A stretch of 64,000 bases of DNA from a virus. Below are positions 9,914 through 63,679 of the stretch, piece by piece. How positions within the stretch are numbered: the stretch's first letter is position 1; every line of letters starts with the position of its first letter. Below the pieces are notes generated by a model that was not told where the DNA came from, ran no database searches, and worked only from the letters and a program-made list of their open reading frames with translations. The stretch spans positions 104,872 through 168,871 of IMG/VR virus record IMGVR_UViG_3300027969_000043; one strand, given 5' to 3'. The position numbers and the translations under genes are program-made.

Positions 9914-11320
9914 ATGGTAATTAGAACATTTTTCGACAAGAATAATACCATAGTTAGAAATGAAGTTGTTAATACAGCTAGAAACCCAGTAACCGAATTA
10001 TTTTACGGTGGGCCTACTGGTGAAAACAAATATAGCCGTTACTTATTTCATTTTGATGAAACTAGATTAGTCAACATGTATGATAATGGTACATTTACTG
10101 ATTTAACTAAACTAAAACACACATTAAAACTAACTAATACAGCGTCATTTGACGAAGGGTTATTAAATGGTTCGTATCAATCAAAAGAAAGAGCGTGCTC
10201 ATTCGACCTAATTGTTTTTAAAGTGGGTCAAGAGTGGGACGAAGGTGTTGGTTATGACTATTTATCCTGTAACCTGCTAACTGGCGATTGTGCTATATCA
10301 ACAAAACCATCAACATGGGTTAATCCACAAACTGGTATAGTTTGGACTGGCGGTTCTGGTGTCTACTCAGGTTCACCAAGTGGGTTAACAATTGCAACAC
10401 AACATTTTGATTTAGGTAATGAAAACCTAGAAGTTGATATTACAGATTACGTTAATGGTGTTATGACAGGAAACACAAATAATGGACTAGGTATAGCATA
10501 CGCTCTCCCGTTTGAAATAACAAGTACACAAAATATGCAATACGTTGGTTTTTTTACCAAATATACACAAACATTTTACGAGCCATACATTGAAACCATA
10601 TATAGCAATTACATAACAGACGATAGAAATAATTTCTTTTTGGATAAACCAAATAAACTTTATCTATACGTTAACGTAGCTGGAAACCCAACAAATTTAG
10701 ATAACCTACCAACAGTATCAATACTTGACGAAAACGGTGTAGCGTATACCTTTATTGAATCATCTGGTGTAACGCACGTAACAAAAGGTGTTTATTCAGT
10801 TGATTTAACAATTCCATCTGGGGATGGTGAAATAGGAACATTATTTAATGATGTTTGGCAGGATTTAGTAATCAACGGGGTTTCTAGACCAGATGTTAAT
10901 CTCTATTTTGAATTAAAAGATAGTTTTGGTTATTATAACCTAGGCGACAGTGATTCGTTACCGAAAAAAGTAGCTGTATCGATATCTGGGGTTAGAAACC
11001 AAGAAAAAATAAAAAGGGGTGACACTAGAAAAGTAATTGTATCAACTAGAATACCATATACCATAGAACAAACACAAAACATATCAAATATAAAATATAG
11101 AATATATGTAACCGAAGGTAAAAATGAACTAACCGTAGTTGATTTTCAACCTGTTGAACTAGCATCTAATTATAATTATTTCTTATTAGACACCCTAAGC
11201 CTAATTCCAAATGTATATTATTTAGATATGTTAGTTGAATCTAATTTAGAGGTAACAACGTTAAAAAATGTTTTAAATTTTACTATTGTTAGCGAATCAA
11301 ACTTAAGACAATCACAATGA
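9914..11320 (+). CDS. Virion surface or tail protein with jelly-roll-like N-terminus
   Basis: 468 residues, beta-rich, Tyr/Asn/Thr-rich. The N-terminal ~220 residues (SRYLFHFDETRL near the start, then HTLKLTNTAS, LIVFKVGQEWDEG and LEVDITDYVNGV) resemble DNRLRE-type carbohydrate-associated beta-sandwich domains. The C-terminal half looks like two immunoglobulin-like beta domains (VNVAGNPTNLDNLPTVSI; GVRNQEKIKRGDTRKVIVST). A decorated tail, fibre or baseplate protein is inferred. It overlaps the following start (ATGATGA). Confidence 0.7.
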   Translation: MVIRTFFDKNNTIVRNEVVNTARNPVTELFYGGPTGENKYSRYLFHFDETRLVNMYDNGTFTDLTKLKHTLKLTNTASFDEGLLNGSYQSKERACSFDLIVFKVGQEWDEGVGYDYLSCNLLTGDCAISTKPSTWVNPQTGIVWTGGSGVYSGSPSGLTIATQHFDLGNENLEVDITDYVNGVMTGNTNNGLGIAYALPFEITSTQNMQYVGFFTKYTQTFYEPYIETIYSNYITDDRNNFFLDKPNKLYLYVNVAGNPTNLDNLPTVSILDENGVAYTFIESSGVTHVTKGVYSVDLTIPSGDGEIGTLFNDVWQDLVINGVSRPDVNLYFELKDSFGYYNLGDSDSLPKKVAVSISGVRNQEKIKRGDTRKVIVSTRIPYTIEQTQNISNIKYRIYVTEGKNELTVVDFQPVELASNYNYFLLDTLSLIPNVYYLDMLVESNLEVTTLKNVLNFTIVSESNLRQSQ

Positions 11321-35917: not shown

Positions 35918-35948
35918 TTGACAAGTTTCAAAATAAAATGTATATTTG
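35917..35948 (+). promoter_or_regulatory. Host-type promoter for the clpC-like gene
   Basis: GTTG, 20 nt, TATATTTG, ending 15 nt before the ATG at 35964. Confidence 0.6.
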
Positions 35949-35963
35949 CTAAAAGGTTATAAA

Positions 35964-38483
35964 ATGAATAGAGAGATATATCCAAAAGTTAAATTAATAA
36001 TGAGGGAAGCAATGAAAGAGGCAAAAACTTTTGATGATATAAAAGTTAGGCCAGAACATATTGCTTTATCAATGATTAATGACAACGATAATGAGAGCAT
36101 TACAATCTTAAATAAATTAAAGGTTGATACCGCTGAATTACACGACAAAATAAGTGATTACCTTAGAAAAAACGACCTTAATCCTAGGATAACACAAACT
36201 AGCAGAGGTAAATTACCGTTATCCGAGGAAACAAAATTGGTTTTTAGAAACGTTGATAGTGAATCTGAAAAATTAAATGACAATATGATAGATACAACAC
36301 ATGTCATGTTATCAATTTTAGCCAGCAAGACACCAACAACAAAAATAATGTCTGACATGGGAATTAATTATAAAAGTTTTAAAAAAGTAGCAATGGATAT
36401 TAGAAACAACACAAAAAACATGGGCGGCCTAGATGAAGAACAATTCAATGACGACTTCAGCGAACAAGACCGCTTTAAGAAAAACAAAAAAAAGAACGAC
36501 TTGTCAAAAACACCTGTTTTAGATAACTTTTGTAGAGATATCAGCAAAGCAGTTGAAAAAAATGAGATTGACCCTGTCGTTGGTAGAACAAATGAAATTA
36601 AAAGAATTTCACAAATTCTTTCTAGAAGAAAGAAAAACAATCCAGTTCTTATCGGTGAACCAGGCGTAGGTAAAACCTCAATTGTTGAAGGGTTAACACA
36701 ATTAATTAAAGACGGTAATGCACCAAGAACAATTGCAAACAAAAAGGTATACAGCCTAGACCTAGCATCAATTGTCGCTGGTACAAAATATCGCGGACAA
36801 TTTGAAGAAAGAATGAAAGCAATCTTAGAAGAGTGCAAAGCAAATCCAGATATCATTCTTTTTATTGATGAATTACATACAATCATTGGTGCGGGCAACG
36901 CATCTGGTTCGTTAGATGCCTCAAACATCTTTAAACCAGCATTAGCGCGTGGAGAAATTCAAATCATTGGTGCCACAACTCTTGATGAATATCGTGAACA
37001 CATTGAAAAAGATGGTGCATTAACTAGAAGGTTCCAACAAGTCCTTGTTGAAGAACCAACACTAGAGGAAACCAAAATCATCCTTACCAACATCAAAGAA
37101 AAATACGAAAAGCACCATAAAGTTCAATATACTGACGACGCCATCGAAGAATGTGTAAAATTATCACATAGATATATAATGGATAGGTCAATGCCAGATA
37201 AAGCTATTGACGTATTGGATGAAGCTGGCGCCGCAACAAATGTTACCATCGAAAAACCACAATCAATTAAAGATTTGGAGGCTAAAAGAAACCAAATCTT
37301 AGATAAGAAAAAAGATGTTGTTAGCAAACAAAAATATGAAGAGGCTGCTAAGCTTCGTGATGAAGAAAGAAAAATTGAAGAGCAATTAGCTAACGCTTTA
37401 ACTGATTGGGCGAATAAATTAGAGAAAAAAATCACAACTGTTGGTGTTGAGCAAATTTCAGAAGTTGTATCTATGATGACTGGAATACCGCTAACAAAAA
37501 TCTCAACCCAAGAAAGCAAACGCTTGATGAATCTTGATAAAGAATTGATGGGTAGGGTAATTGGTCAAGACCCAGCGGTTACAAAGGTTGTTAAAGCAAT
37601 CAAAAGAAATCGTATTGGTATTAAAGATAAAAACAAACCCATTGGTTCATTTATATTCTTAGGTCCAACAGGTGTTGGTAAAACATACCTTGCTAAATTA
37701 CTTGCTGAACATGTGTTTGGTGATGAAGAAGCTCTTGTTAGAATCGATATGAGTGAATATATGGAAAAACACTCTGTATCTAGATTAATCGGACCCCCAC
37801 CAGGCTACGTCGGGTACGACCAAGGTGGTCAATTAACCGAAAAAGTTAGAAGAAAACCACACTGTGTTATTTTATTTGATGAAATTGAAAAAGCACACGA
37901 TGACGTATTTAATTTATTGCTTCAATTATTGGATGAAGGACAATTAACCGACGGATTAGGTAGAAAGATTAATTTTAAGAACTCTTTAATCATCATGACA
38001 TCAAATATTGGTGTTAGAGAATTAAGTTCTTTCGGTAAATCAATGGGCTTTGACACTGGCGCATCAATTGCTGATGAAGAAGCTAGGGCTCGTGCTATCA
38101 TCGAGAAAGCACTTAAGAAAAAATTCAAACCTGAATTCTTAAATCGTATTGATGAATCAATTGTGTTTAATGGTCTAAAACAAGAGGACATCCATAAAAT
38201 TATCTATATGGAAATTGAAAAACTTGAGTCTAGAATTTCAGAAGTTGGGTACAAACTTAAAATAAACAAATCAGCTATTGAGTATTTAGCCAAAGAGGGA
38301 TACGATGAAGCATACGGCGCCAGACCACTCGCCAGAACAATCCAACGGTTCATAGAAGACCCTGTCGCAGATGAAATACTAAGTGGCAATGTTAAAGATG
38401 GTGATACAATTAAAATAACACTAGATAAAACAACCAACCAAATAGTACTAAAATCCGATAAAACGGTAAAAATAGAAGAATAA
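35964..38483 (+). CDS. clpC: ClpC/ClpB-type AAA+ unfoldase
   Basis: 839 residues. A Clp-N repeat domain (about 1-145) is followed by AAA1 with Walker A GEPGVGKT (231-238) and FIDELHT. A middle region carries a UVR-like motif (KQKYEEAAKLRDEERKIEEQL), and AAA2 has GPTGVGKT, GYVGYDQGG and LFDEIEKAH. The UVR motif and length fit ClpC rather than ClpB, and an MGF tripeptide near 690 could be the ClpP-contact loop. Unfolds proteins with ATP. A complete Clp unfoldase is unusual in a phage. Start: ATG at 35964, since an upstream TTG lies inside the promoter. Confidence 0.92.
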   Translation: MNREIYPKVKLIMREAMKEAKTFDDIKVRPEHIALSMINDNDNESITILNKLKVDTAELHDKISDYLRKNDLNPRITQTSRGKLPLSEETKLVFRNVDSESEKLNDNMIDTTHVMLSILASKTPTTKIMSDMGINYKSFKKVAMDIRNNTKNMGGLDEEQFNDDFSEQDRFKKNKKKNDLSKTPVLDNFCRDISKAVEKNEIDPVVGRTNEIKRISQILSRRKKNNPVLIGEPGVGKTSIVEGLTQLIKDGNAPRTIANKKVYSLDLASIVAGTKYRGQFEERMKAILEECKANPDIILFIDELHTIIGAGNASGSLDASNIFKPALARGEIQIIGATTLDEYREHIEKDGALTRRFQQVLVEEPTLEETKIILTNIKEKYEKHHKVQYTDDAIEECVKLSHRYIMDRSMPDKAIDVLDEAGAATNVTIEKPQSIKDLEAKRNQILDKKKDVVSKQKYEEAAKLRDEERKIEEQLANALTDWANKLEKKITTVGVEQISEVVSMMTGIPLTKISTQESKRLMNLDKELMGRVIGQDPAVTKVVKAIKRNRIGIKDKNKPIGSFIFLGPTGVGKTYLAKLLAEHVFGDEEALVRIDMSEYMEKHSVSRLIGPPPGYVGYDQGGQLTEKVRRKPHCVILFDEIEKAHDDVFNLLLQLLDEGQLTDGLGRKINFKNSLIIMTSNIGVRELSSFGKSMGFDTGASIADEEARARAIIEKALKKKFKPEFLNRIDESIVFNGLKQEDIHKIIYMEIEKLESRISEVGYKLKINKSAIEYLAKEGYDEAYGARPLARTIQRFIEDPVADEILSGNVKDGDTIKITLDKTTNQIVLKSDKTVKIEE

Positions 38484-55807: not shown

Positions 55808-56560
55808 TTATTTAATCTTTATATGTTCAACAACCTTGATATTATCCGTATTAAATATTATGTATTCATAATCCTGATAGTCAAACCCATCATATCCACA
55901 CTTTTTAAAAAATAACGACATGTCTTTTTCGTACTCCGCAGTTTTGTAATTAAACGCAAATATAAGAAAATCATTAATGCTCTTATCTGTGTTTTTTTTC
56001 AAATCATATAATATCTCGGTGTTTTTATCACCACCCTTTTGGTTGCCTAAAATCTCTTTGACATTAGAAAGAACATCCTGTATTTCTTTATACTCCGCAT
56101 TATTTTTAACACGCATTAACACATCTTCCAGCTTATTGACCAAAAATTTTAAATCATCTAAATCATTGATATCGTAATCCCTTAGATTTTCGTATTTAGG
56201 ATTTGTGTTAATTTCATTCCTAATCTCACTAGTATACTTTAATTTTAATTCAATACTTCTAATAAAATCAGAACTTATCTTTTCATCCAAAGATAATAAC
56301 TTTAAATTTGATTTATCAACTATTGTCATATATGCGCCATAATCCGATGCCTTAAATGGCGTAGAAGCAAAATATATTCCCCACCCATGTATACCCCTAG
56401 AACCACCCTTGATATAATCAGTATGAAATTTGTACCTAAAATCATCACCACAATGATACATGATATCTTGCTTTGAATACTTTCTAGCAATATCTTGAGT
56501 TATATTACTCACCATTTCATTCAAATACCTTCGTAAACTATTTTTTATAATATTTTTCAT
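55808..56560 (-). CDS. ADP-ribosyltransferase-like protein with predicted capsid-targeting leader
   Basis: 250 residues. Leader MKNIIKNSLRRYLNE15-M matches the processing motif. The body opens with DIMYHCGDDFRYKFH, then GIHGWGIYFASTPFKASDYG. It ends with YDGFDYQDYEYIIFNTDNIKV, the order seen in ADP-ribosyltransferase domains of polyvalent phage and plasmid proteins (His, Y-F, and a Q/E-like C-terminal site). T4 Alt, which is injected and ADP-ribosylates host RNA polymerase, is a functional precedent. Target here unknown. Confidence 0.72.
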   Translation of the reverse strand: MKNIIKNSLRRYLNEMVSNITQDIARKYSKQDIMYHCGDDFRYKFHTDYIKGGSRGIHGWGIYFASTPFKASDYGAYMTIVDKSNLKLLSLDEKISSDFIRSIELKLKYTSEIRNEINTNPKYENLRDYDINDLDDLKFLVNKLEDVLMRVKNNAEYKEIQDVLSNVKEILGNQKGGDKNTEILYDLKKNTDKSINDFLIFAFNYKTAEYEKDMSLFFKKCGYDGFDYQDYEYIIFNTDNIKVVEHIKIK

Positions 56561-58261: not shown

Positions 58262-58489
58262 TTATTTTTTATCATTGTAAATTATAAAAATTGTTGATGT
58301 AATAAATAAAACTAATGAAGTAACCCAACCCCAACACAAAAACCAACCTACGTGCCCTTTATCCATTGCGTGCGCGTATTCGTACATACTGCTTTCACTT
58401 GTCCCAGGTTCAGCACCCAAAATAAATAACGTACATAAACCTAAAACGATAAGGGAAATTTCTTGAGCATAGAAAATAAAATTTTTCAT
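58262..58489 (-). CDS. Two-helix membrane protein, paralogue of 60271-60507
   Basis: 75 residues with two membrane helices (ISLIVLGLCTLFIL; VGWFLCWGWVTSLVLFITSTIFI) enclosing LGAEPGTSESSMYEYAHAMD, a loop almost identical to that of the 60271 protein. The loop conservation suggests a binding function. Small duplicated membrane proteins next to RNA elements are typical of accessory phage regions. No family known. Confidence 0.65.
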   Translation of the reverse strand: MKNFIFYAQEISLIVLGLCTLFILGAEPGTSESSMYEYAHAMDKGHVGWFLCWGWVTSLVLFITSTIFIIYNDKK

Positions 58490-58592: not shown

Positions 58593-58650
58593 GTTGCTAA
58601 AATGTTTAGCAATTTGCTAAATTATTTAGTATGCTAATATTTTTAGCATT
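58593..58650. repeat. TGCTAAA iteron-like inverted-repeat cluster
   Basis: At least five TGCTAA(A)/(T)TTAGCA units in about 58 bp, forming nested palindromes (TGCTAAAATGTTTAGCA, TTTAGCAATTTGCTAAA, ATGCTAA...TTAGCAT). The last serves as terminator-like hairpin of small RNA copy A. Confidence 0.5.
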
Positions 58651-58701
58651 ATAGGGTGCGTTGGAGTATACTTCCCGATTTGTAGTCGTCTGTGCCTTTG
58701 C
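58631..58701 (-). ncRNA. Small RNA family copy A
   Basis: Predicted transcript after promoter 58706-58737. Core GGGAAGTATACTCC (58663-58676 as complement). This copy ends in an ATGCTAA hairpin instead of the T tract and is the most diverged 3' end. Confidence 0.6.
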
Positions 58702-58705
58702 ATAG

Positions 58706-58737
58706 CAAAGGTAAGGAAAGCAATTGATATAAACAAA
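58706..58737 (-). promoter_or_regulatory. Promoter of small RNA copy A
   Basis: TTTG, 20 nt, TACCTTTG. An inverted repeat CCTTTGC-TAT-GCAAAGG spans the -7 box and expected start. Confidence 0.7.
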
Positions 58738-58823
58738 TTTATTTTGAATTATTTTTAAATTATTTTAAATAAAAAAAATCAGGATATAGAAATATCCCGA
58801 TTTATCCTTATACAATATAAACC

Positions 58824-58958
58824 CTAATTAAAACGATTGTTGCGTCGTGTCATTTTGTCCCACGACTGATTGCCGTGACAACCATATCCAGCACGACAAG
58901 ATGAACCAAAGATAGCGATTGAACCAAGCAATACCAAAGCAAATAATAATTTTTTCAT
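58824..58958 (-). CDS. Small lipoprotein (44 aa)
   Basis: ATG at 58958 opens a 44-residue frame. MKKLLFALVLLGSIAIFGSSC is a lipoprotein signal (quoted here as two parts: hydrophobic LLFALVLLGSIAIF and lipobox GSSC21), followed by RAGYGCHGNQSWDK and a basic tail. A perfect host-type promoter precedes it. Many phage and plasmid accessory regions carry such lipoproteins. Function unknown. Confidence 0.65.
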   Translation of the reverse strand: MKKLLFALVLLGSIAIFGSSCRAGYGCHGNQSWDKMTRRNNRFN

Positions 58959-58988
58959 TTTTAAAAGTTTAATTGTTAATTGATAATG

Positions 58989-59020
58989 CAAATATAGGAC
59001 AATAAATTCAAACTACCAAA
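58989..59020 (-). promoter_or_regulatory. Host-type promoter of the 44-aa lipoprotein gene
   Basis: TTTGGTAG, 20 nt between boxes, TATATTTG; ends 30 nt before the ATG. Confidence 0.75.
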
Positions 59021-59040
59021 TTTATTTTTAAAAAGATTTA

Positions 59041-59072
59041 TTTGTTTATTTGAAATTAATTTTGTATTATTG
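59041..59072 (+). promoter_or_regulatory. Host-type promoter giving a nearly leaderless mRNA
   Basis: TTTG, 20 nt, TATTATTG, then the ATG at 59077 only 4 nt after the -7 box. Confidence 0.6.
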
Positions 59073-59076
59073 CTGA

Positions 59077-59259
59077 ATGAAAAAATTATTATTACTTATT
59101 GCGATTGCTACCTTATCGGGTTGCTATGAATATCGTAAATTGCCCAATGTTAAACGTGTTAATAAGGGTGATGTAAGAAAAGCAATGAAACATAGCACTT
59201 CAAATTATGAAATGCCAAGACAAAGCACTTATAACGTTTCTTATCATTATAACCATTAA
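59077..59259 (+). CDS. Small lipoprotein (60 aa)
   Basis: MKKLLLLIAIATLSGC has the lipobox L-S-G-C16. The mature part is basic and Tyr/His-rich (YEYRKLPNVKRVNKGDVRK) and ends YHYNH. ATG at the predicted transcription start suggests a leaderless message. Twelve nt before a membrane protein gene. Confidence 0.65.
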   Translation: MKKLLLLIAIATLSGCYEYRKLPNVKRVNKGDVRKAMKHSTSNYEMPRQSTYNVSYHYNH

Positions 59260-59270
59260 ACCAAACTAAA

Positions 59271-59459
59271 ATGAAAATCAAAACAAAATTAAGCCCAGAA
59301 AATGAAATGCTATCTTTGTATTTATCAATTATTGTTAGCCTTATATTTTTCGCCTTGTGGGTGTTTACAGACATCAACCCAACAAAGTTATTTTTTAACT
59401 ACATCGTGTTTTATTGTGTTGTTGTGCTGATTGGTTTCTTTTATCCTTTCAAAAAATAA
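59271..59459 (+). CDS. Small two-helix membrane protein
   Basis: 62 residues, two hydrophobic helices (LYLSIIVSLIFFALWVFTDI; FFNYIVFYCVVVLIGFFYP) and a basic end. Co-transcribed with the lipoprotein. Not recognised. Confidence 0.6.
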   Translation: MKIKTKLSPENEMLSLYLSIIVSLIFFALWVFTDINPTKLFFNYIVFYCVVVLIGFFYPFKK

Positions 59460-59481
59460 TTTAAAAAAAGATTAAAAAAGA

Positions 59482-59513
59482 TTTGGTAGAATGAATAATT
59501 CTACCTATCTTTG
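59482..59513 (+). promoter_or_regulatory. Promoter of small RNA copy B
   Basis: TTTGGTAG, 20 nt between boxes, TATCTTTG. An inverted repeat CTTTGA...TCAAAG overlaps the -7 box. Confidence 0.75.
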
Positions 59514-59517
59514 ATTT

Positions 59518-59580
59518 ATCAAAGCGATAAGACGACGACAAGTCGGTAGGTATACTCCACGCTACGTGCTATTTTTTTTA
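59518..59580 (+). ncRNA. Small RNA family copy B
   Basis: Core GGTAGGTATACTCC at 59545-59558, then CACGCTACGTG hairpin and T8 (59572-59579). Lies after the membrane protein gene and is convergent with the 59636-60043 gene. Confidence 0.72.
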
Positions 59581-59635
59581 TCCAATATATAAAAAAATTG
59601 TCAGATATTACTCTGACAATCATATTATAGTTTAT

Positions 59636-60043
59636 TTAACTATAATAAATTTCCTCCAAATCCTTCAAAACAGCTTTGCCCTTATCCGTCCAAGATATAC
59701 CTTTGAGCCATACAAAATGCTCAAGGTTTTGAGGGTTGCGCCAATCCATTCCTTCGCCCTCAAATAGCCATTTTAAAGCCGTTTTATAGTCAGATGCGCC
59801 CAATTGGATAGTACGTCCAATTAACAAATCAAAAGCCTTCAAATCGGCTTGTAAACGCAATTCCTCCTCGATGGCATTCTCACGGCAAACCTCGGAAAAA
59901 CGAGCGAAATCGGCTTGTAACTGCTCGTCAGACATAGCCGAATAATCCAAGCCACGAGGGCGAAAGCCGTATGCGTCCTTGTGAAAATCGCTATAAACTT
60001 GTAGCATTTCGTTTCTCTCGGCAAGTGATAAGGTAGTAGTCAT
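59636..60043 (-). CDS. Hypothetical acidic protein
   Basis: 135 residues, acidic and helical, with DAYGFRPRGLDY near 23-34. It has a host-type promoter. From memory a YGFRPRG motif appears in small phage accessory proteins of unknown function; I cannot confirm. Not assigned. Confidence 0.65.
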   Translation of the reverse strand: MTTTLSLAERNEMLQVYSDFHKDAYGFRPRGLDYSAMSDEQLQADFARFSEVCRENAIEEELRLQADLKAFDLLIGRTIQLGASDYKTALKWLFEGEGMDWRNPQNLEHFVWLKGISWTDKGKAVLKDLEEIYYS

Positions 60044-60073
60044 AATTTGAATGTTTAAATGTTAAAAGATAAT

Positions 60074-60105
60074 GCAATTTAGCAAAATAAATTCAAAGCA
60101 CCAAA
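60074..60105 (-). promoter_or_regulatory. Host-type promoter
   Basis: TTTGGTGC, 20 nt between boxes, TAAATTGC on the minus strand, ahead of the 59636-60043 gene. Confidence 0.65.
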
Positions 60106-60152
60106 TTTATTTTCATATAATTTTTTTTATAATATATTGGTTTATATCGCAT

Positions 60153-60216
60153 AAAAAAAATATCGTGTAGGTTGGAGTATACTTCCCGATAGTGTATATC
60201 GTATTGCAACTTTGCT
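60153..60216 (-). ncRNA. Small RNA family copy C
   Basis: Core GGGAAGTATACTCC (complement of 60174-60187). An outer stem TATCG / CGATA encloses the core right before the T8 tract. Confidence 0.75.
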
Positions 60217-60220
60217 AAAG

Positions 60221-60252
60221 CAAAGATAAGGTAGTTTTTTCAAACTACCAAA
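60221..60252 (-). promoter_or_regulatory. Promoter of small RNA copy C
   Basis: TTTGGTAG, 20 nt between boxes, TATCTTTG; inverted repeat CTTTGC-TTTA-GCAAAG across the -7 box. Confidence 0.75.
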
Positions 60253-60270
60253 TCTTTTGCAAAGTATTTT

Positions 60271-60507
60271 TTATATTTTTTTGTATATACGGATTGCAGT
60301 AGTAACTACAAACGTAACAAATGATAAACCTAATGCCAAAAGCAAATACCAACCAAAATTACCTTTATCGCAAAAATGCTCGTATTCATACATAGAACTC
60401 TCACTTGTCCCAGGCTCAGCGCCTAATACACATAATAGGCAAAAAGCAAAAATACACATTGAAAAAAATTGTGCGTTTTCAATAAATTCATTAAAAAACT
60501 TTTTCAT
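60271..60507 (-). CDS. Two-helix membrane protein, paralogue of 58262-58489
   Basis: 78 residues from ATG at 60507. Two membrane helices (FFSMCIFAFCLLCVL; FGWYLLLALGLSFVTFVVTTAI) around LGAEPGTSESSMYEYEHFCD, nearly identical in its loop to the first paralogue. Host-type promoter upstream. Confidence 0.65.
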   Translation of the reverse strand: MKKFFNEFIENAQFFSMCIFAFCLLCVLGAEPGTSESSMYEYEHFCDKGNFGWYLLLALGLSFVTFVVTTAIRIYKKI

Positions 60508-60536
60508 AATAGATTGTTTAAATGTTAAAAGATAGT

Positions 60537-60568
60537 GCAATTTACTAAAATAAATTCAAACTACCAAA
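60537..60568 (-). promoter_or_regulatory. Host-type promoter
   Basis: TTTGGTAG, 20 nt between boxes, TAAATTGC on the minus strand, ahead of the gene starting at 60507. Confidence 0.68.
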
Positions 60569-60609
60569 TTTATTTTTAAAAAAATAAATAAAAAATAATT
60601 GCCAAAATA

Positions 60610-60641
60610 TTTGTTTTATAATTTAAAAACCCTTACCTTTG
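60610..60641 (+). promoter_or_regulatory. Promoter of small RNA copy D
   Basis: TTTG, 20 nt, TACCTTTG; inverted repeat CCTTTGC-TAAA-GCAAAGG across the -7 box. Confidence 0.75.
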
Positions 60642-60645
60642 CTAA

Positions 60646-60707
60646 AGCAAAGGCAAAGACGTTTAAACAACGGGAAGTATACTCCACGCTACGTGTTATT
60701 TTTTTTA
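60646..60707 (+). ncRNA. Small RNA family copy D
   Basis: Core GGGAAGTATACTCC at 60672-60685. Outer pairing AACA(A)CG / CGTGTT encloses the core before T8 at 60699-60706. Confidence 0.75.
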
Positions 60708-60810
60708 TATATGAAAAAAAAATTTTGCAAAGGTACAACATTATTTCCATACTACCAAATAAAGTTATCCACATAGGCAAAAAATATGTTAATAACTTTT
60801 CTAAAATAAA

Positions 60811-60842
60811 TTTGGTAGGTTAAAAAAATAGTCCTATTTTTA
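60811..60842 (+). promoter_or_regulatory. Host-type promoter
   Basis: TTTGGTAG, 20 nt between boxes, TATTTTTA, 32 nt before the ATG at 60875. Confidence 0.6.
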
Positions 60843-60874
60843 CATCAGTTCTTTCACATTTAAACCAATCTATT

Positions 60875-61183
60875 ATGACACAATTTGAAACGGCTATTGC
60901 CCAAGCCGAAATTGGCGAATTGCAAACTCCAAGTGTTAGTTATGGTAAAACTGCCATAGATTACTTTTGGTATCAAGTTTCAGTACATCACTTTAACCTT
61001 AAAATTATGGCAAGTGGTATGAAATGTCGGGGTATTAAATTTACCGATATTAAAAAATACTACGGCTTGAAAGGTAATTGCGCTAAAAAATGTCTGGCAC
61101 AATTTGAAAATGTCGTTACTCGTTACCGATTAAAAATGATTAACGACCATCTCAACACAATGGAAACTGAATACTCGTTTTAA
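60875..61183 (+). CDS. Hypothetical protein (102 aa)
   Basis: Helical, basic C-terminus (RYRLKMINDHLNTME), with KYYGLKGNCAKKCLAQFENV resembling a winged or helix-turn-helix DNA-binding segment. Position in a regulatory region makes a regulator possible; not proven. Its own promoter and a strong terminator make it monocistronic. Confidence 0.65.
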   Translation: MTQFETAIAQAEIGELQTPSVSYGKTAIDYFWYQVSVHHFNLKIMASGMKCRGIKFTDIKKYYGLKGNCAKKCLAQFENVVTRYRLKMINDHLNTMETEYSF

Positions 61184-61197
61184 ACTCCAATCCAACA

Positions 61198-61223
61198 AAG
61201 CACCCTTCGGGGTGTTTTTTTTT
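61198..61223 (+). terminator. Intrinsic terminator
   Basis: CACCC-TTCG-GGGTG with a T9 tract. Confidence 0.92.
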
Positions 61224-61228
61224 GCCCC

Positions 61229-61244
61229 ATGTACACAAAAGTGT
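61229..61244. repeat. ATGTACACAAAAGTGT repeat, copy 1
   Basis: Sixteen bases identical to 63576-63591, containing ACAC/GTGT dyad symmetry. Confidence 0.5.
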
Positions 61245-61279
61245 GCATTTAAAATAATTTAAAAATAATTCAAAATAAA

Positions 61280-61311
61280 TTTGGTAGTATCAAATTAATG
61301 TACTACATTTG
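61280..61311 (+). promoter_or_regulatory. Promoter of small RNA copy E
   Basis: TTTGGTAG, 20 nt between boxes, TACATTTG. Confidence 0.75.
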
Positions 61312-61315
61312 TATT

Positions 61316-61380
61316 GTCAATGTGAATGACAGACGATTAAAACTCGGGAGGTATACTCCAAGCTACGTCATATTTTTTTA
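61316..61380 (+). ncRNA. Small RNA family copy E
   Basis: 5' hairpin TGTCA / TGACA, core GGGAGGTATACTCC at 61346-61359 (perfect GGAG/CTCC stem), T7 at 61373-61379. Confidence 0.72.
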
Positions 61381-61464
61381 GCGCTCCAAAAATCTTTTCA
61401 TTCTTTCATATTCATAATTTTCATAATATAATATTTTTTTAATGAATTTAAATAATGCTTTCAT
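61378..61464 (-). CDS. Possible 28-aa basic peptide
   Basis: ATG at 61464 opens MKALFKFIKKILYYENY and a basic end. A loose promoter-like TTTG...TAATTAAA lies upstream. It ends at the T tract of small RNA E. Weak support; the rest of 61381-61628 shows nothing else I recognise. Confidence 0.25.
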   Translation of the reverse strand: MKALFKFIKKILYYENYEYERMKRFLER

Positions 61465-61628
61465 AGTATATGGATTTAATTATATATATTCAAATAATAT
61501 ACCAAACCAAAATTATTTTTCATATCCTATTTGTCAGCTCAAAACTGACAATGCAGATATAAAACATAACTCATTTTAAGCCGATTTAACGGCATATATT
61601 TATCAGATAAGGTAATCATAAGGGGCAT

Positions 61629-61656
61629 AAAAAAAGGGGCTAAATTAGCCCCTTAT
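61629..61656 (-). terminator. Intrinsic terminator after the DUF932 gene
   Basis: Stem GGGGCTAA / TTAGCCCC followed on the minus strand by T7. Confidence 0.88.
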
Positions 61657-61673
61657 TCATTCGTATAGCAATT

Positions 61674-62540
61674 TTAATTTGCCGTTGCCATATCGTATAT
61701 GGTATCAAATATTTTGCCGTCTAGTGTTTTTTGCACATCAAACGATTTCGCAAATTTGGTATGCAATATCTCGTTGAAGGCATTGTAACCTAACCACATA
61801 TTAGGCGAAGTATTAAGGTATCTAGATTCAGCCAATATCGTATCTGCAACTATTTCAGCATTTAAGGACGGCTCGGGATTTTTGTCCGATTTTTCATACT
61901 TAAATATAGCAGTTTCCTTGCATACGTCCTTTACGAATTTTTGCACATCAGAAACGATTGCACCACTCAAAAACTCTGCCTTCGGTTTCAACGTGTAATA
62001 CTCGTTATTCAAAAAATTGCTAACAAGGGTTTCAATTTCGGGCAATACAAACTCAACGATACTACCTTTATGCTTTACGTTAAAAGACATTTTGGTTTCA
62101 GCAACGTGCAAACCATTAGTACAAACTTGGCGAAAATATCCAAAACTGCCCGACGTTTTACAACTGCCGTCATACGAATTAACGAAACGTAACATTGGCT
62201 TGATAATATCTTTGCCATTAGCCACAACGATATTATATCTATCATCGTTTAAGATATAATCAACTGCGAAACTACGATTATCACGATTAATACTACGTGT
62301 GTCGTATTGCACATCAGCATTAATCAAATTTTCTTCCACAACGGCAAAAAACTGCTCGTTGGGTAAATGTCCGTAATTGTCCGAAAATACGCCTACCAAC
62401 GTGCCGTTGGAATAGATTGCTTTTTCTAATCCCTTACGTGTAGGAGTGCCTAAAATTTCGGCTAAATTACGCACTTCGCTATCAACGAATACGTTGTCAT
62501 TCTGCATTGTTTGCCCCTTAAAATTGATACGTGTAGTCAT
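61674..62540 (-). CDS. DUF932-family protein
   Basis: 288 residues. GSFGYFRQVCTNGLHVAETK around 155-175 and preceding DVQYDTRSINRDNRSFAVDY are the DUF932 phage/plasmid-like pattern. Members are common on phages and plasmids; activity unknown, possibly linked to replication or recombination. It has a host-type promoter and terminator, so it is monocistronic and likely early. Confidence 0.82.
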   Translation of the reverse strand: MTTRINFKGQTMQNDNVFVDSEVRNLAEILGTPTRKGLEKAIYSNGTLVGVFSDNYGHLPNEQFFAVVEENLINADVQYDTRSINRDNRSFAVDYILNDDRYNIVVANGKDIIKPMLRFVNSYDGSCKTSGSFGYFRQVCTNGLHVAETKMSFNVKHKGSIVEFVLPEIETLVSNFLNNEYYTLKPKAEFLSGAIVSDVQKFVKDVCKETAIFKYEKSDKNPEPSLNAEIVADTILAESRYLNTSPNMWLGYNAFNEILHTKFAKSFDVQKTLDGKIFDTIYDMATAN

Positions 62541-62593
62541 AACTGGGTTGCATTTTAGCCACTCGCATTGTGGTTAGGTTGAATTGTGAGATA

Positions 62594-62625
62594 CAAATAT
62601 CGCATTAGTTTTTCAAACCACCAAA
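62594..62625 (-). promoter_or_regulatory. Host-type promoter of the DUF932 gene
   Basis: TTTGGTGG, 20 nt between boxes, GATATTTG on the minus strand. Confidence 0.65.
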
Positions 62626-62695
62626 TTTATTTTGAATTATTTTTAAAATAGTTATACACATATTATTTTTTATAATGTGAATAACTTTGCACCCT

Positions 62696-62764
62696 AAAAA
62701 AAATAGCGTGTAGGTTGGAGTATACTTCCCGCCATTGTTAGTGCCGTATGTCATTCAAATTGAC
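62696..62764 (-). ncRNA. Small RNA family copy F
   Basis: Core GGGAAGTATACTCC (complement of 62717-62730). Outer stem AATGGCG / CGCTATT (7 bp, one G-U) encloses it before T8. Confidence 0.75.
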
Positions 62765-62768
62765 AATA

Positions 62769-62800
62769 CAAATATAGGATAATAAATTGAAACTACCAAA
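62769..62800 (-). promoter_or_regulatory. Promoter of small RNA copy F
   Basis: TTTGGTAG, 20 nt between boxes, TATATTTG. Confidence 0.75.
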
Positions 62801-62854
62801 TTTATTTTAAAAAAAAATGCCCTACATTTGTAAGGCATTTAATTCGTGTGCTGA

Positions 62855-63013
62855 TTAACACTGATAAGTTATCGGTATTATCTCAAACGCTTCAATAAAA
62901 CCAGTTTCTGCTTGTAACACTTCAACAAGTGCAAGAGCATCAACTCTGTGTTCAAATGCTTTGTGCATAATACCCGCACCATTTTCAAATACGAGCCAAA
63001 TTGTTTTTTCCAT
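62855..63013 (-). CDS. Small protein (52 aa)
   Basis: ATG at 63013: MEKTIWLVFENGAGIMHKAF then a helix (RVDALALVEVLQAE) and a strand. Compact beta-alpha-beta fold likely. Host-type promoter upstream. Not recognised. Confidence 0.6.
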   Translation of the reverse strand: MEKTIWLVFENGAGIMHKAFEHRVDALALVEVLQAETGFIEAFEIIPITYQC

Positions 63014-63038
63014 AATAGATTGTTTTAATTGTGAGATA

Positions 63039-63070
63039 CAAATATAGGATTAATAATTCAAACTACCAAA
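63039..63070 (-). promoter_or_regulatory. Host-type promoter of the 52-aa gene
   Basis: TTTGGTAG, 20 nt between boxes, TATATTTG on the minus strand. Confidence 0.75.
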
Positions 63071-63099
63071 TATTTTTTGAAGTATTTTTAAAATATTTT

Positions 63100-63131
63100 T
63101 TTGGTGGTCTGGAATTAATGTTGTATGTTTG
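63100..63131 (+). promoter_or_regulatory. Host-type promoter of a short transcript
   Basis: TTTGGTGG, 20 nt between boxes, TATGTTTG, with only 65-70 nt before a terminator. Confidence 0.68.
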
Positions 63132-63135
63132 CTTT

Positions 63136-63199
63136 GTTTAAATGAATAGGTTAAAAGATAATCCCTGATGTGTCTACATCGGGGATACTTTTTATTTTG
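63136..63199 (+). ncRNA. Candidate small RNA G (unrelated to A-F)
   Basis: Short transcript between promoter 63100-63131 and the hairpin ATCCC-x-GATGT / ACATC-x-GGGAT (63161-63187) with a T-rich tail. It contains an 8-codon frame (MNRLKDNP), so a leader peptide is an alternative. Confidence 0.5.
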
Positions 63200-63207
63200 T
63201 ATAAACT

Positions 63208-63236
63208 AAAAAACCCCACACTTTTGGTGTAGGGAA
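63208..63236 (-). terminator. Intrinsic terminator
   Basis: Minus-strand stem CCCTACACC / TGTGGGG-like with one mismatch and T6, after the gene ending at 63259. Confidence 0.7.
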
Positions 63237-63258
63237 TTTATTCACAATTAAACTAACT

Positions 63259-63489
63259 TTAACTTCGTAGATATGCAATATCTTTGTTATACTTTAATGT
63301 CTTGGCTTGGCTTGTGGTCAGTCCAACAAACTCTTGTGGTCTAAAACTAATTTCATCGGGATAGAATTCAAATAAAAATTCTTCAACCCCATTTTCAAGC
63401 GTAACATAAACCTTTGGCATATCATCAAAGAAACTCTTTGGCATTGCCGTAATTCTTGCTGATACGATTTTTAATTCTTCTGCTAACAT
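63259..63489 (-). CDS. Small hypothetical protein (76 aa)
   Basis: ATG at 63489 is preferred to an upstream start inside the leader. FDDMPKVYVTLENGVEEFLFEFYPDEISF is split as PKVYVTLENG and FLFEFYPDEISF, a beta-rich core, followed by FVGLTTSQAKTL. Similar small proteins occur in Bacteroidota phages from memory; function unknown. Confidence 0.65.
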   Translation of the reverse strand: MLAEELKIVSARITAMPKSFFDDMPKVYVTLENGVEEFLFEFYPDEISFRPQEFVGLTTSQAKTLKYNKDIAYLRS

Positions 63490-63519
63490 AATTTTATTTT
63501 TTGATTGTGAATGAATAAG

Positions 63520-63551
63520 CAAATTTAAGATTAATTTTCCACACTACCAAA
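63520..63551 (-). promoter_or_regulatory. Host-type promoter
   Basis: TTTGGTAG, 20 nt between boxes, TAAATTTG on the minus strand. Confidence 0.72.
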
Positions 63552-63575
63552 TATTTTGCAAAGTTTTTTCAACCC

Positions 63576-63591
63576 ATGTACACAAAAGTGT
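63576..63591. repeat. ATGTACACAAAAGTGT repeat, copy 2
   Basis: Identical 16-mer to 61229-61244, upstream of the promoter at 63520-63551. Confidence 0.5.
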
Positions 63592-63679
63592 ATATCGTGG
63601 AATTGATTGAGAGTCGCCCCATGCTCTCATGTATTGCCGTTCTTTGTTGCGTGGACTTTCGGCACATTAAACAATTCCA

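Follow-up and report, generated by a model that had tools for sequence, protein, structure and literature searches.

Introduction

Phage-encoded small RNAs (sRNAs) are known mainly as single prophage genes in Pseudomonadota and Staphylococcus (PMC12197685; also general knowledge). The Racr RNA anti-CRISPRs copy the repeat of the host's clustered regularly interspaced short palindromic repeats (CRISPR) (PMC10651486). In Bacteroides, the 14 paralogous FopS sRNAs have individual promoters, described as of the sigma-ABfr class, are bound by the RRM-1 protein RbpB and act on susC-type mRNAs via a shared seed; one FopS-like sequence in a Caudovirales phage was also noted (PMC11697453). Here we report that six elements (copies A to F) in a stretch of 64,000 nucleotides (nt) of IMG/VR virus record IMGVR_UViG_3300027969_000043 (positions 104,872 to 168,871; hereafter the window) belong to a large, undescribed, structured, multicopy family of phage RNAs. 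To our knowledge, the best studied Bacteroidota have no Hfq, and little is known of the RNA biology of their phages.

The window forms the final 64 kb of the record (168,871 bases) and encodes a T4-type major head protein, a portal and a large terminase. Flavobacterium phage immuto and its relatives were among the closest isolates; identity is approximately 42% across a portion of the head protein and 29% in the terminase.

Results

A structured RNA family in large phages

A reading made from the letters alone (the sequence-only reading) had proposed six small RNA genes in the window. All six were recovered at the positions and on the strands that it gave, and a covariance model found nothing else convincing in the window and no seventh copy in the rest of the record. 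A separate promoter of the sigma-ABfr type (TTTG / TAnnTTTG) precedes each copy. The exact form TTTG-N20-TAnnTTTG, which is the pattern of Bacteroidota sigma-ABfr promoters, stands upstream of all six, as had been claimed; it was counted 20 times in the window (3.4 expected), for the most part within the last 6 kb.

Relatives were gathered by two routes. A first scan of IMG/VR with a pattern of promoter, spacer and core returned true relatives in other phages, in which the sequences of the two 5' hairpins (H1 and H2, described below) are distinct. The second scan used a 102-amino-acid (aa) protein encoded next to the RNA genes and was independent of the RNA sequence; it led to L208, whose RNA carries a different core, GAGAGTAGACTCC. 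When cores of the GAGAGTAGACTCC type were sought, 52 stretches with 62 distinct copies were obtained on approximately 35 contigs, including phages of 200-360 kb. With the final model, R3, 144 copies were found in 35 of the 36 IMG/VR phage records tested, up to 13 per record; since some of these 35 records are closely related, the distinct copies are not fully independent. Records with copies range from 38 kb to 362 kb, and in the copy-rich ones the copies are grouped together in a single region that has many small genes and often spans 20-30 kb; here they are likewise grouped in the last 6 kb. The family is thus not private to this phage. Only one of 395 Bacteroidota genomes had it, with two copies on a single 27-kb contig of a metagenome-assembled genome (MAG); this contig carries an endonuclease VII-like gene and other PHROG matches, and is probably phage.

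The promoter was checked in relatives with a covariance model that contains no promoter. A promoter-like box pair was present at 39 of 49 model hits, compared with 9% of random positions, and the strict pattern at 26 of the 49, compared with 2.4%.

No Rfam 15 family reached the gathering score on any copy when the window and 13 relative loci were searched with cmscan, in agreement with the statement that no described RNA matches; a few weak hits in the searched sequence were scattered and chance-like. Among isolated phages, no copies were found in Flavobacterium phage immuto, which is the closest isolate, or in three other INPHARED records, and INPHARED BLAST matches span promoters only, or a promoter and the first bases of H1. 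A pattern scan of GTDB gave chance-like hits only, and a literature text search for the core gave only unrelated sequences. Pattern hits such as L040, L075 and L129 were judged to be chance, one long unrelated sequence being common to them.

RNA anatomy and covariation

Downstream of the -7 box, the order is H1, a linker, H2, the 3' module directly, RAC and a tail. H1 is the extreme 5' hairpin (for example GUC/GAC, GUUAUC/GAUAAC, GUUCA/UGAAC and GUAC/GUAC), and the linker often reads (C)GGG or RA. H2 has 3-8 pairs, among them CGAU/AUCG, CGUU/AACG, CGAC/GUCG, CGCU/AGCG, CUAC/GUAG, UCAC/GUGA and UGGUAC/GUACCA, and its loop is often GNRA-like. The near-invariant 3' module, RGUA(U/G)ACUCC-RAC(CUACC), often with a U tract, reads GGNARGUAUACUCC in this phage, whereas NAGAGUAGACUCC is found in most phages. 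After RAC, the tail is CUACCUUAUAUUUUUUU or of the CACGUC type.

In an alignment of 35 copies, H1 and H2 retained nearly all of their pairs, 94.7% of cells being paired over the whole structure, and two-sided changes were observed in all 7 H1/H2 pairs. The covariation score was 0.298 against 0.101 when shuffled, and pairing fell to 33-59% when the partner was slid along. With 105 copies, 189 double changes were counted against 58 ± 9.5. An alignment-free stem test gave a mean of 4.25 for H2 against 2.93 ± 0.20 and of 5.14 for H1 against 2.71 ± 0.20; furthermore, swapping the H2 arms between copies gave 7.65 ± 0.21 compared with 11.13 observed. RNAalifold recovered both hairpins with no structure supplied. 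H1 and H2 were not selected by the search patterns but were favoured by the covariance models. When the six copies were folded alone, z-scores were approximately -1 to +0.7; hence thermodynamics alone would have missed the structure. No coding signal was seen in the elements, as the sequence-only reading had stated. Taken together, the covariation goes beyond sequence conservation, as in a structured non-coding RNA, and the alignments indicate that compensatory changes preserve H1 and H2 even as their sequences drift. The existence and structure of the family are well supported.

The covariance-model search that had been suggested as a check thus brought out relatives in other phages with significant covariation, and the proposal of a small RNA gene family with conserved structure stood. 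Its details fared unequally. The core that it described, GGGAAGTATACTCC, is present in this phage but represents a minor UAUA subtype; (A/G/U)AGAGUAGACUCC forms the core of most copies, and most relatives read AGAGTAGACTCC. Near-invariance held in that four copies have exactly GGNAGTATACTCC, although B and E carry the slight variants GTAGGTATACTCC and GGAGGTATACTCC, respectively. An outer stem closing just before the T tract, in which compensatory change had been seen, can indeed be paired in copies C, D and F; across the family, however, it is no better than with shuffled tails (4.33 vs 3.85 ± 0.34 in G000, where 41 of 300 shuffles were as good; 4.40 vs 4.38 ± 0.11 in other phages). The helices that covary are instead H1 and H2, upstream of the core, and H2, which had not been listed, uses the 5' strand of the proposed outer stem. 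Pairing of the linker or the core with the tail, as in a third helix or pseudoknot, gave no copy-specific signal (217 of 300 and 159 of 200 permutations were as good). A small GAG-UNNA-CUC hairpin can be drawn inside the module, which is too constant there for covariation. Since a U run of at least 6 lies within 34 nt downstream in 33 of 81 parsed copies, the 3' ends may arise by more than one mechanism.

RNA copies with an inserted stretch were also observed (L254 224-314, L258 3564-3639, L278 5455-5525, L239 6393-6473 and L191 2918-3015). The insertion, a hairpin in some, precedes a second (UAG)ACUCCRAC block, an arrangement resembling a duplicated 3' module.

The six copies in the window

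Copy A (58631-58737, minus strand) has its promoter at 58706-58737, with TTTG at -33, 20 nt and TACCTTTG at -7. Its RNA (58646-58705) has a weak H1 (58702-58700/58695-58693), H2 at 58688-58686/58678-58676 and the core at 58675-58663; the 3' end is degenerate and without a U tract, and the scores were 28.7 bits with model R1 and 33.4 bits with R3. Downstream of it, at 58600-58660, repeated TGCTAA/TTAGCA inverted repeats stand where the U tract would be. The other five copies have the T7-T8 tract, as had been noticed, and a promoter in which TTTG is followed by 20 nt and a TAnnTTTG box. In copy B (plus), the promoter at 59482-59513, with TATCTTTG, precedes an RNA at 59514-59579 with H1 at 59516-59520/59526-59530, H2 at 59533-59536/59542-59545, its core at 59546-59558 and U8 at 59572-59579 (62.9 bits). 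Copy C (minus) has the same box, TATCTTTG, in a promoter at 60221-60252; its RNA spans 60153-60220, with H1 at 60215-60213/60208-60206, H2 at 60201-60197/60191-60187, the core at 60186-60174 and U8 at 60160-60153 (41.3 bits). For copy D (plus), a promoter at 60610-60641 with TACCTTTG is followed by an RNA at 60642-60706, in which H1 is weak, H2 lies at 60660-60663/60669-60672, the core at 60673-60685 and U8 at 60699-60706 (42.6 bits). Copy E (plus; promoter 61280-61311, TACATTTG; RNA 61312-61379) comprises H1 at 61315-61319/61327-61331, H2 at 61334-61336/61344-61346, its core at 61347-61359 and U7 at 61373-61379 (61.9 bits). Finally, copy F (minus; promoter 62769-62800, TATATTTG; RNA 62696-62768) has H1 at 62765-62761/62753-62749, a short, irregular H2 at approximately 62746-62745/62731-62730, the core at 62729-62717 and U8 at 62703-62696 (48.5 bits).

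Genomic context

The context was examined for 126 copies on 45 contigs, and the next downstream gene was found for 114. It was convergent in 63 cases and on the same strand in 51; among the latter, a promoter lay in between in 33 and none was found in 18. In G438, most copies are oriented against the surrounding genes. Since more than half of the copies face the next gene and most others are separated from it by a further promoter, the copies are standalone RNA genes. At 58700-63600, several small protein genes likewise have a promoter of the TTTGGTAG-N16-TAnnTTTG type upstream; thus, RNA and protein genes at this end share one promoter class.

The gene for the 102-aa protein (60875-61183, plus strand) lies between copies D and E, and relatives of the protein adjoin RNA copies in G003, G004, G008 and G026. 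Its AlphaFold2 model is confident (predicted local distance difference test, pLDDT, 90). The PDB gave no match to it at E <= 0.001, and neither Pfam nor PHROG has a family for the protein. Members of this protein family, of 88-102 aa, were seen in L179, L184, L187, L196, L199, L208, L241, L249, L271 and L309, with the conserved pattern MTQFE..TPSVS..IDYF.YQL..H.FNLKIMA.GM..RGIKFTDIKKYYGLKGRSAKDCL. Downstream of the 102-aa gene in both L196 (10365-10438) and L199 (approximately 10351-10424) stands a second, distinct RNA gene with the same promoter, a U tract and the constant core GGGCGGGGGUAARACCACGAAGUAAAUCAGA. It was observed in five contigs of up to 436 kb (L196, L199, L291, L292 and L293) and may represent either a third family type or a family of its own.

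Two paralogous small membrane-protein genes at 58262-58489 and 60271-60540 (both minus), with LGAEPGTSESSMYEY..DKG..GW in common, adjoin copies A and C, respectively. Elsewhere in the window, 35946-38483 (plus) encodes an 845-aa AAA+ unfoldase of ClpB/ClpC type (Clp_N, AAA_2 and ClpB_D2-small), and 55808-56560 (minus) a protein with GIHGWGIYFASTPFKASDYG, by eye like an ADP-ribosyltransferase-like motif.

Discussion

As to function, we infer that the family may consist of standalone, high-dosage, trans-acting sRNAs of approximately 60-80 nt, the constant 3' module of which would bind one host factor and thereby titrate or redirect it; we favour this reading, but only tentatively. Host RNA polymerase would transcribe the RNAs from the Bacteroidota-type promoters, and expression is probably high. 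H1 and H2, being generic, are likely to be a stabilising scaffold and to protect the ends, since their variable stems and loops carry no constant sequence. The working end would be the constant module, which could capture a single factor of the host in trans; an RNA-binding protein is the most likely, and the first candidate ligand is a protein of the RRM-1/RbpB type serving Bacteroidota without Hfq. The number of copies suggests a role in dosage, and their divergence, two copies from the same phage having identical runs with a median of only 15 nt, would avoid long direct repeats prone to recombine. During infection, the host factor would be titrated or redirected; a sponge or decoy role, which the sequence-only reading had considered, is possible.

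Several points weigh against this proposal. The downstream part of the module has two forms (CCUACC with a U tract, and CACGUC), which in some cases occur together in the same phage; what most copies have in common is thus only RGUANACUCCRAC. The module also looks unpaired and C-rich, like an antisense seed. Because members were partly gathered by a promoter and core pattern, which favours a strict promoter and core, the conservation of both is partly built in. Binding of a host factor by the module is deduced from sequence, and the link to RRM-1 is by analogy only. In favour of the proposal, the phages showed no RRM-1 protein over the cut-off, and one was found in the Bacteroidota MAG G138.

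A wider proposal, which we consider rather unlikely, is that the RNAs form a new effector class of phages. Banks of as many as 13 diverged copies of a three-part RNA in large Bacteroidota phages would capture central host machinery through RGUA(U/G)ACUCCRAC, be it a central RNA-binding protein or the apparatus of translation or transcription, and would rewire host RNA metabolism by mass action.

Alternatively, the RNAs might be antisense sRNAs in which the constant, probably unpaired CUCCRACCUACC pairs with host mRNAs and blocks their translation. This is conceivable but doubtful. The layout, with many paralogous sRNAs of approximately 65-70 nt, own sigma-ABfr promoters and one shared block, is FopS-like, and the block is C-rich and not locked in a covarying helix; against this, the block itself varies in two places (UAUA/UAGA and CUACC/CACGUC). 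Since 7-mers complementary to it were not enriched in phage sequences (0.6 Mb), and no consistent complementarity was found to 23S ribosomal RNA (rRNA; two genes) or part of one 16S rRNA, we rank protein binding first and antisense action on host mRNAs second. By eye, the 3' part of a 5S rRNA offered a stretch of eight similar bases (GAGAGUAG) and an 8-nt complement (GUAGGUCG); neither was retained, as many copies have A where G would be needed for the complement.

A counter-defence RNA, that is, a decoy or mimic such as a CRISPR-repeat mimic of the Racr kind, a type III antitoxin mimic or a bait for an RNA-sensing nuclease, would agree with the high copy number and the nearly phage-only distribution. 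Some H1 hairpins even read GUUG..CAAC, which is found in many CRISPR repeats. However, mimicry of a repeat requires a match to that of the host, whereas H1 varies (GUC/GAC, GUUAUC/GAUAAC, GUUCA/UGAAC, GUGUAC and others), and we know of no CRISPR repeat that the constant part matches. The copies are not tandem and have no pseudoknot repeat of the ToxI kind. We therefore regard such a role as improbable.

The start of the RNA at the promoter, the adjacent hairpins and the scattering of copies among genes could also suit cis-acting 5' leaders, either attenuators or put-like antiterminators acting on the transcribing polymerase; in copy C the tail CGATA has the same sequence as the 5' arm of H2, and a switch between H2 and an outer stem can be drawn. 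Across copies this switch pairing was not found, and many copies end in a U tract. A leader should be followed by its own transcription unit, and only the 18 same-strand copies with no promoter found in between have that arrangement; the convergent genes, the intervening promoters and the counter-oriented copies of G438 make cis action very unlikely. A DNA-level protein-binding palindrome around GTATAC with a promoter nearby by chance, which the sequence-only reading had named as a possible refutation and to which the near-palindromic GGAGTATACTCC of the UAUA subtype lends itself, is strongly disfavoured, as conservation covers the flanking CTCC and the RNA hairpins but not GTATAC itself, the larger UAGA subtype is non-palindromic, the order of elements behind the promoter is fixed, and the RNA-type compensatory changes lie in H1 and H2, away from the core.

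An undescribed structured multicopy RNA family thus spans T4-like and giant Bacteroidota phages, and its constant 3' module leads to a testable hypothesis of one host ligand common to dozens of phages. Such a ligand, if found, would expose either a hub of host RNA biology or a defence which these phages have to disable.

The put RNA of phage HK022 acts in cis on polymerase, and genes follow it. The present RNAs resemble it as short RNAs with adjacent hairpins directly behind a promoter, but most copies face convergent genes or are separated by a promoter from the next gene. Like Racr (PMC10651486), they are phage-encoded small non-coding RNAs and possibly mimics; unlike Racr, their hairpins have no constant sequence, and given the variability of H1 a Racr-type repeat mimic is unlikely. 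As for FopS, the middle part of the R1' seed GTGTTTTTCATAGTATTAGATTTAAGGTTAACAAA had no match in the window at 3 mismatches, and the local scores of 81 copies equalled shuffled scores; the two families are thus unrelated in sequence. The conserved block is 3' in the phage family and 5' in FopS, two covarying hairpins stand upstream of it in the phage family, and the latter is almost confined to phages. Nevertheless, both have many diverged paralogues per genome, a length of approximately 65-70 nt, individual sigma-ABfr promoters and one conserved block, and by this analogy FopS appears to be the best precedent for the phage RNA family.

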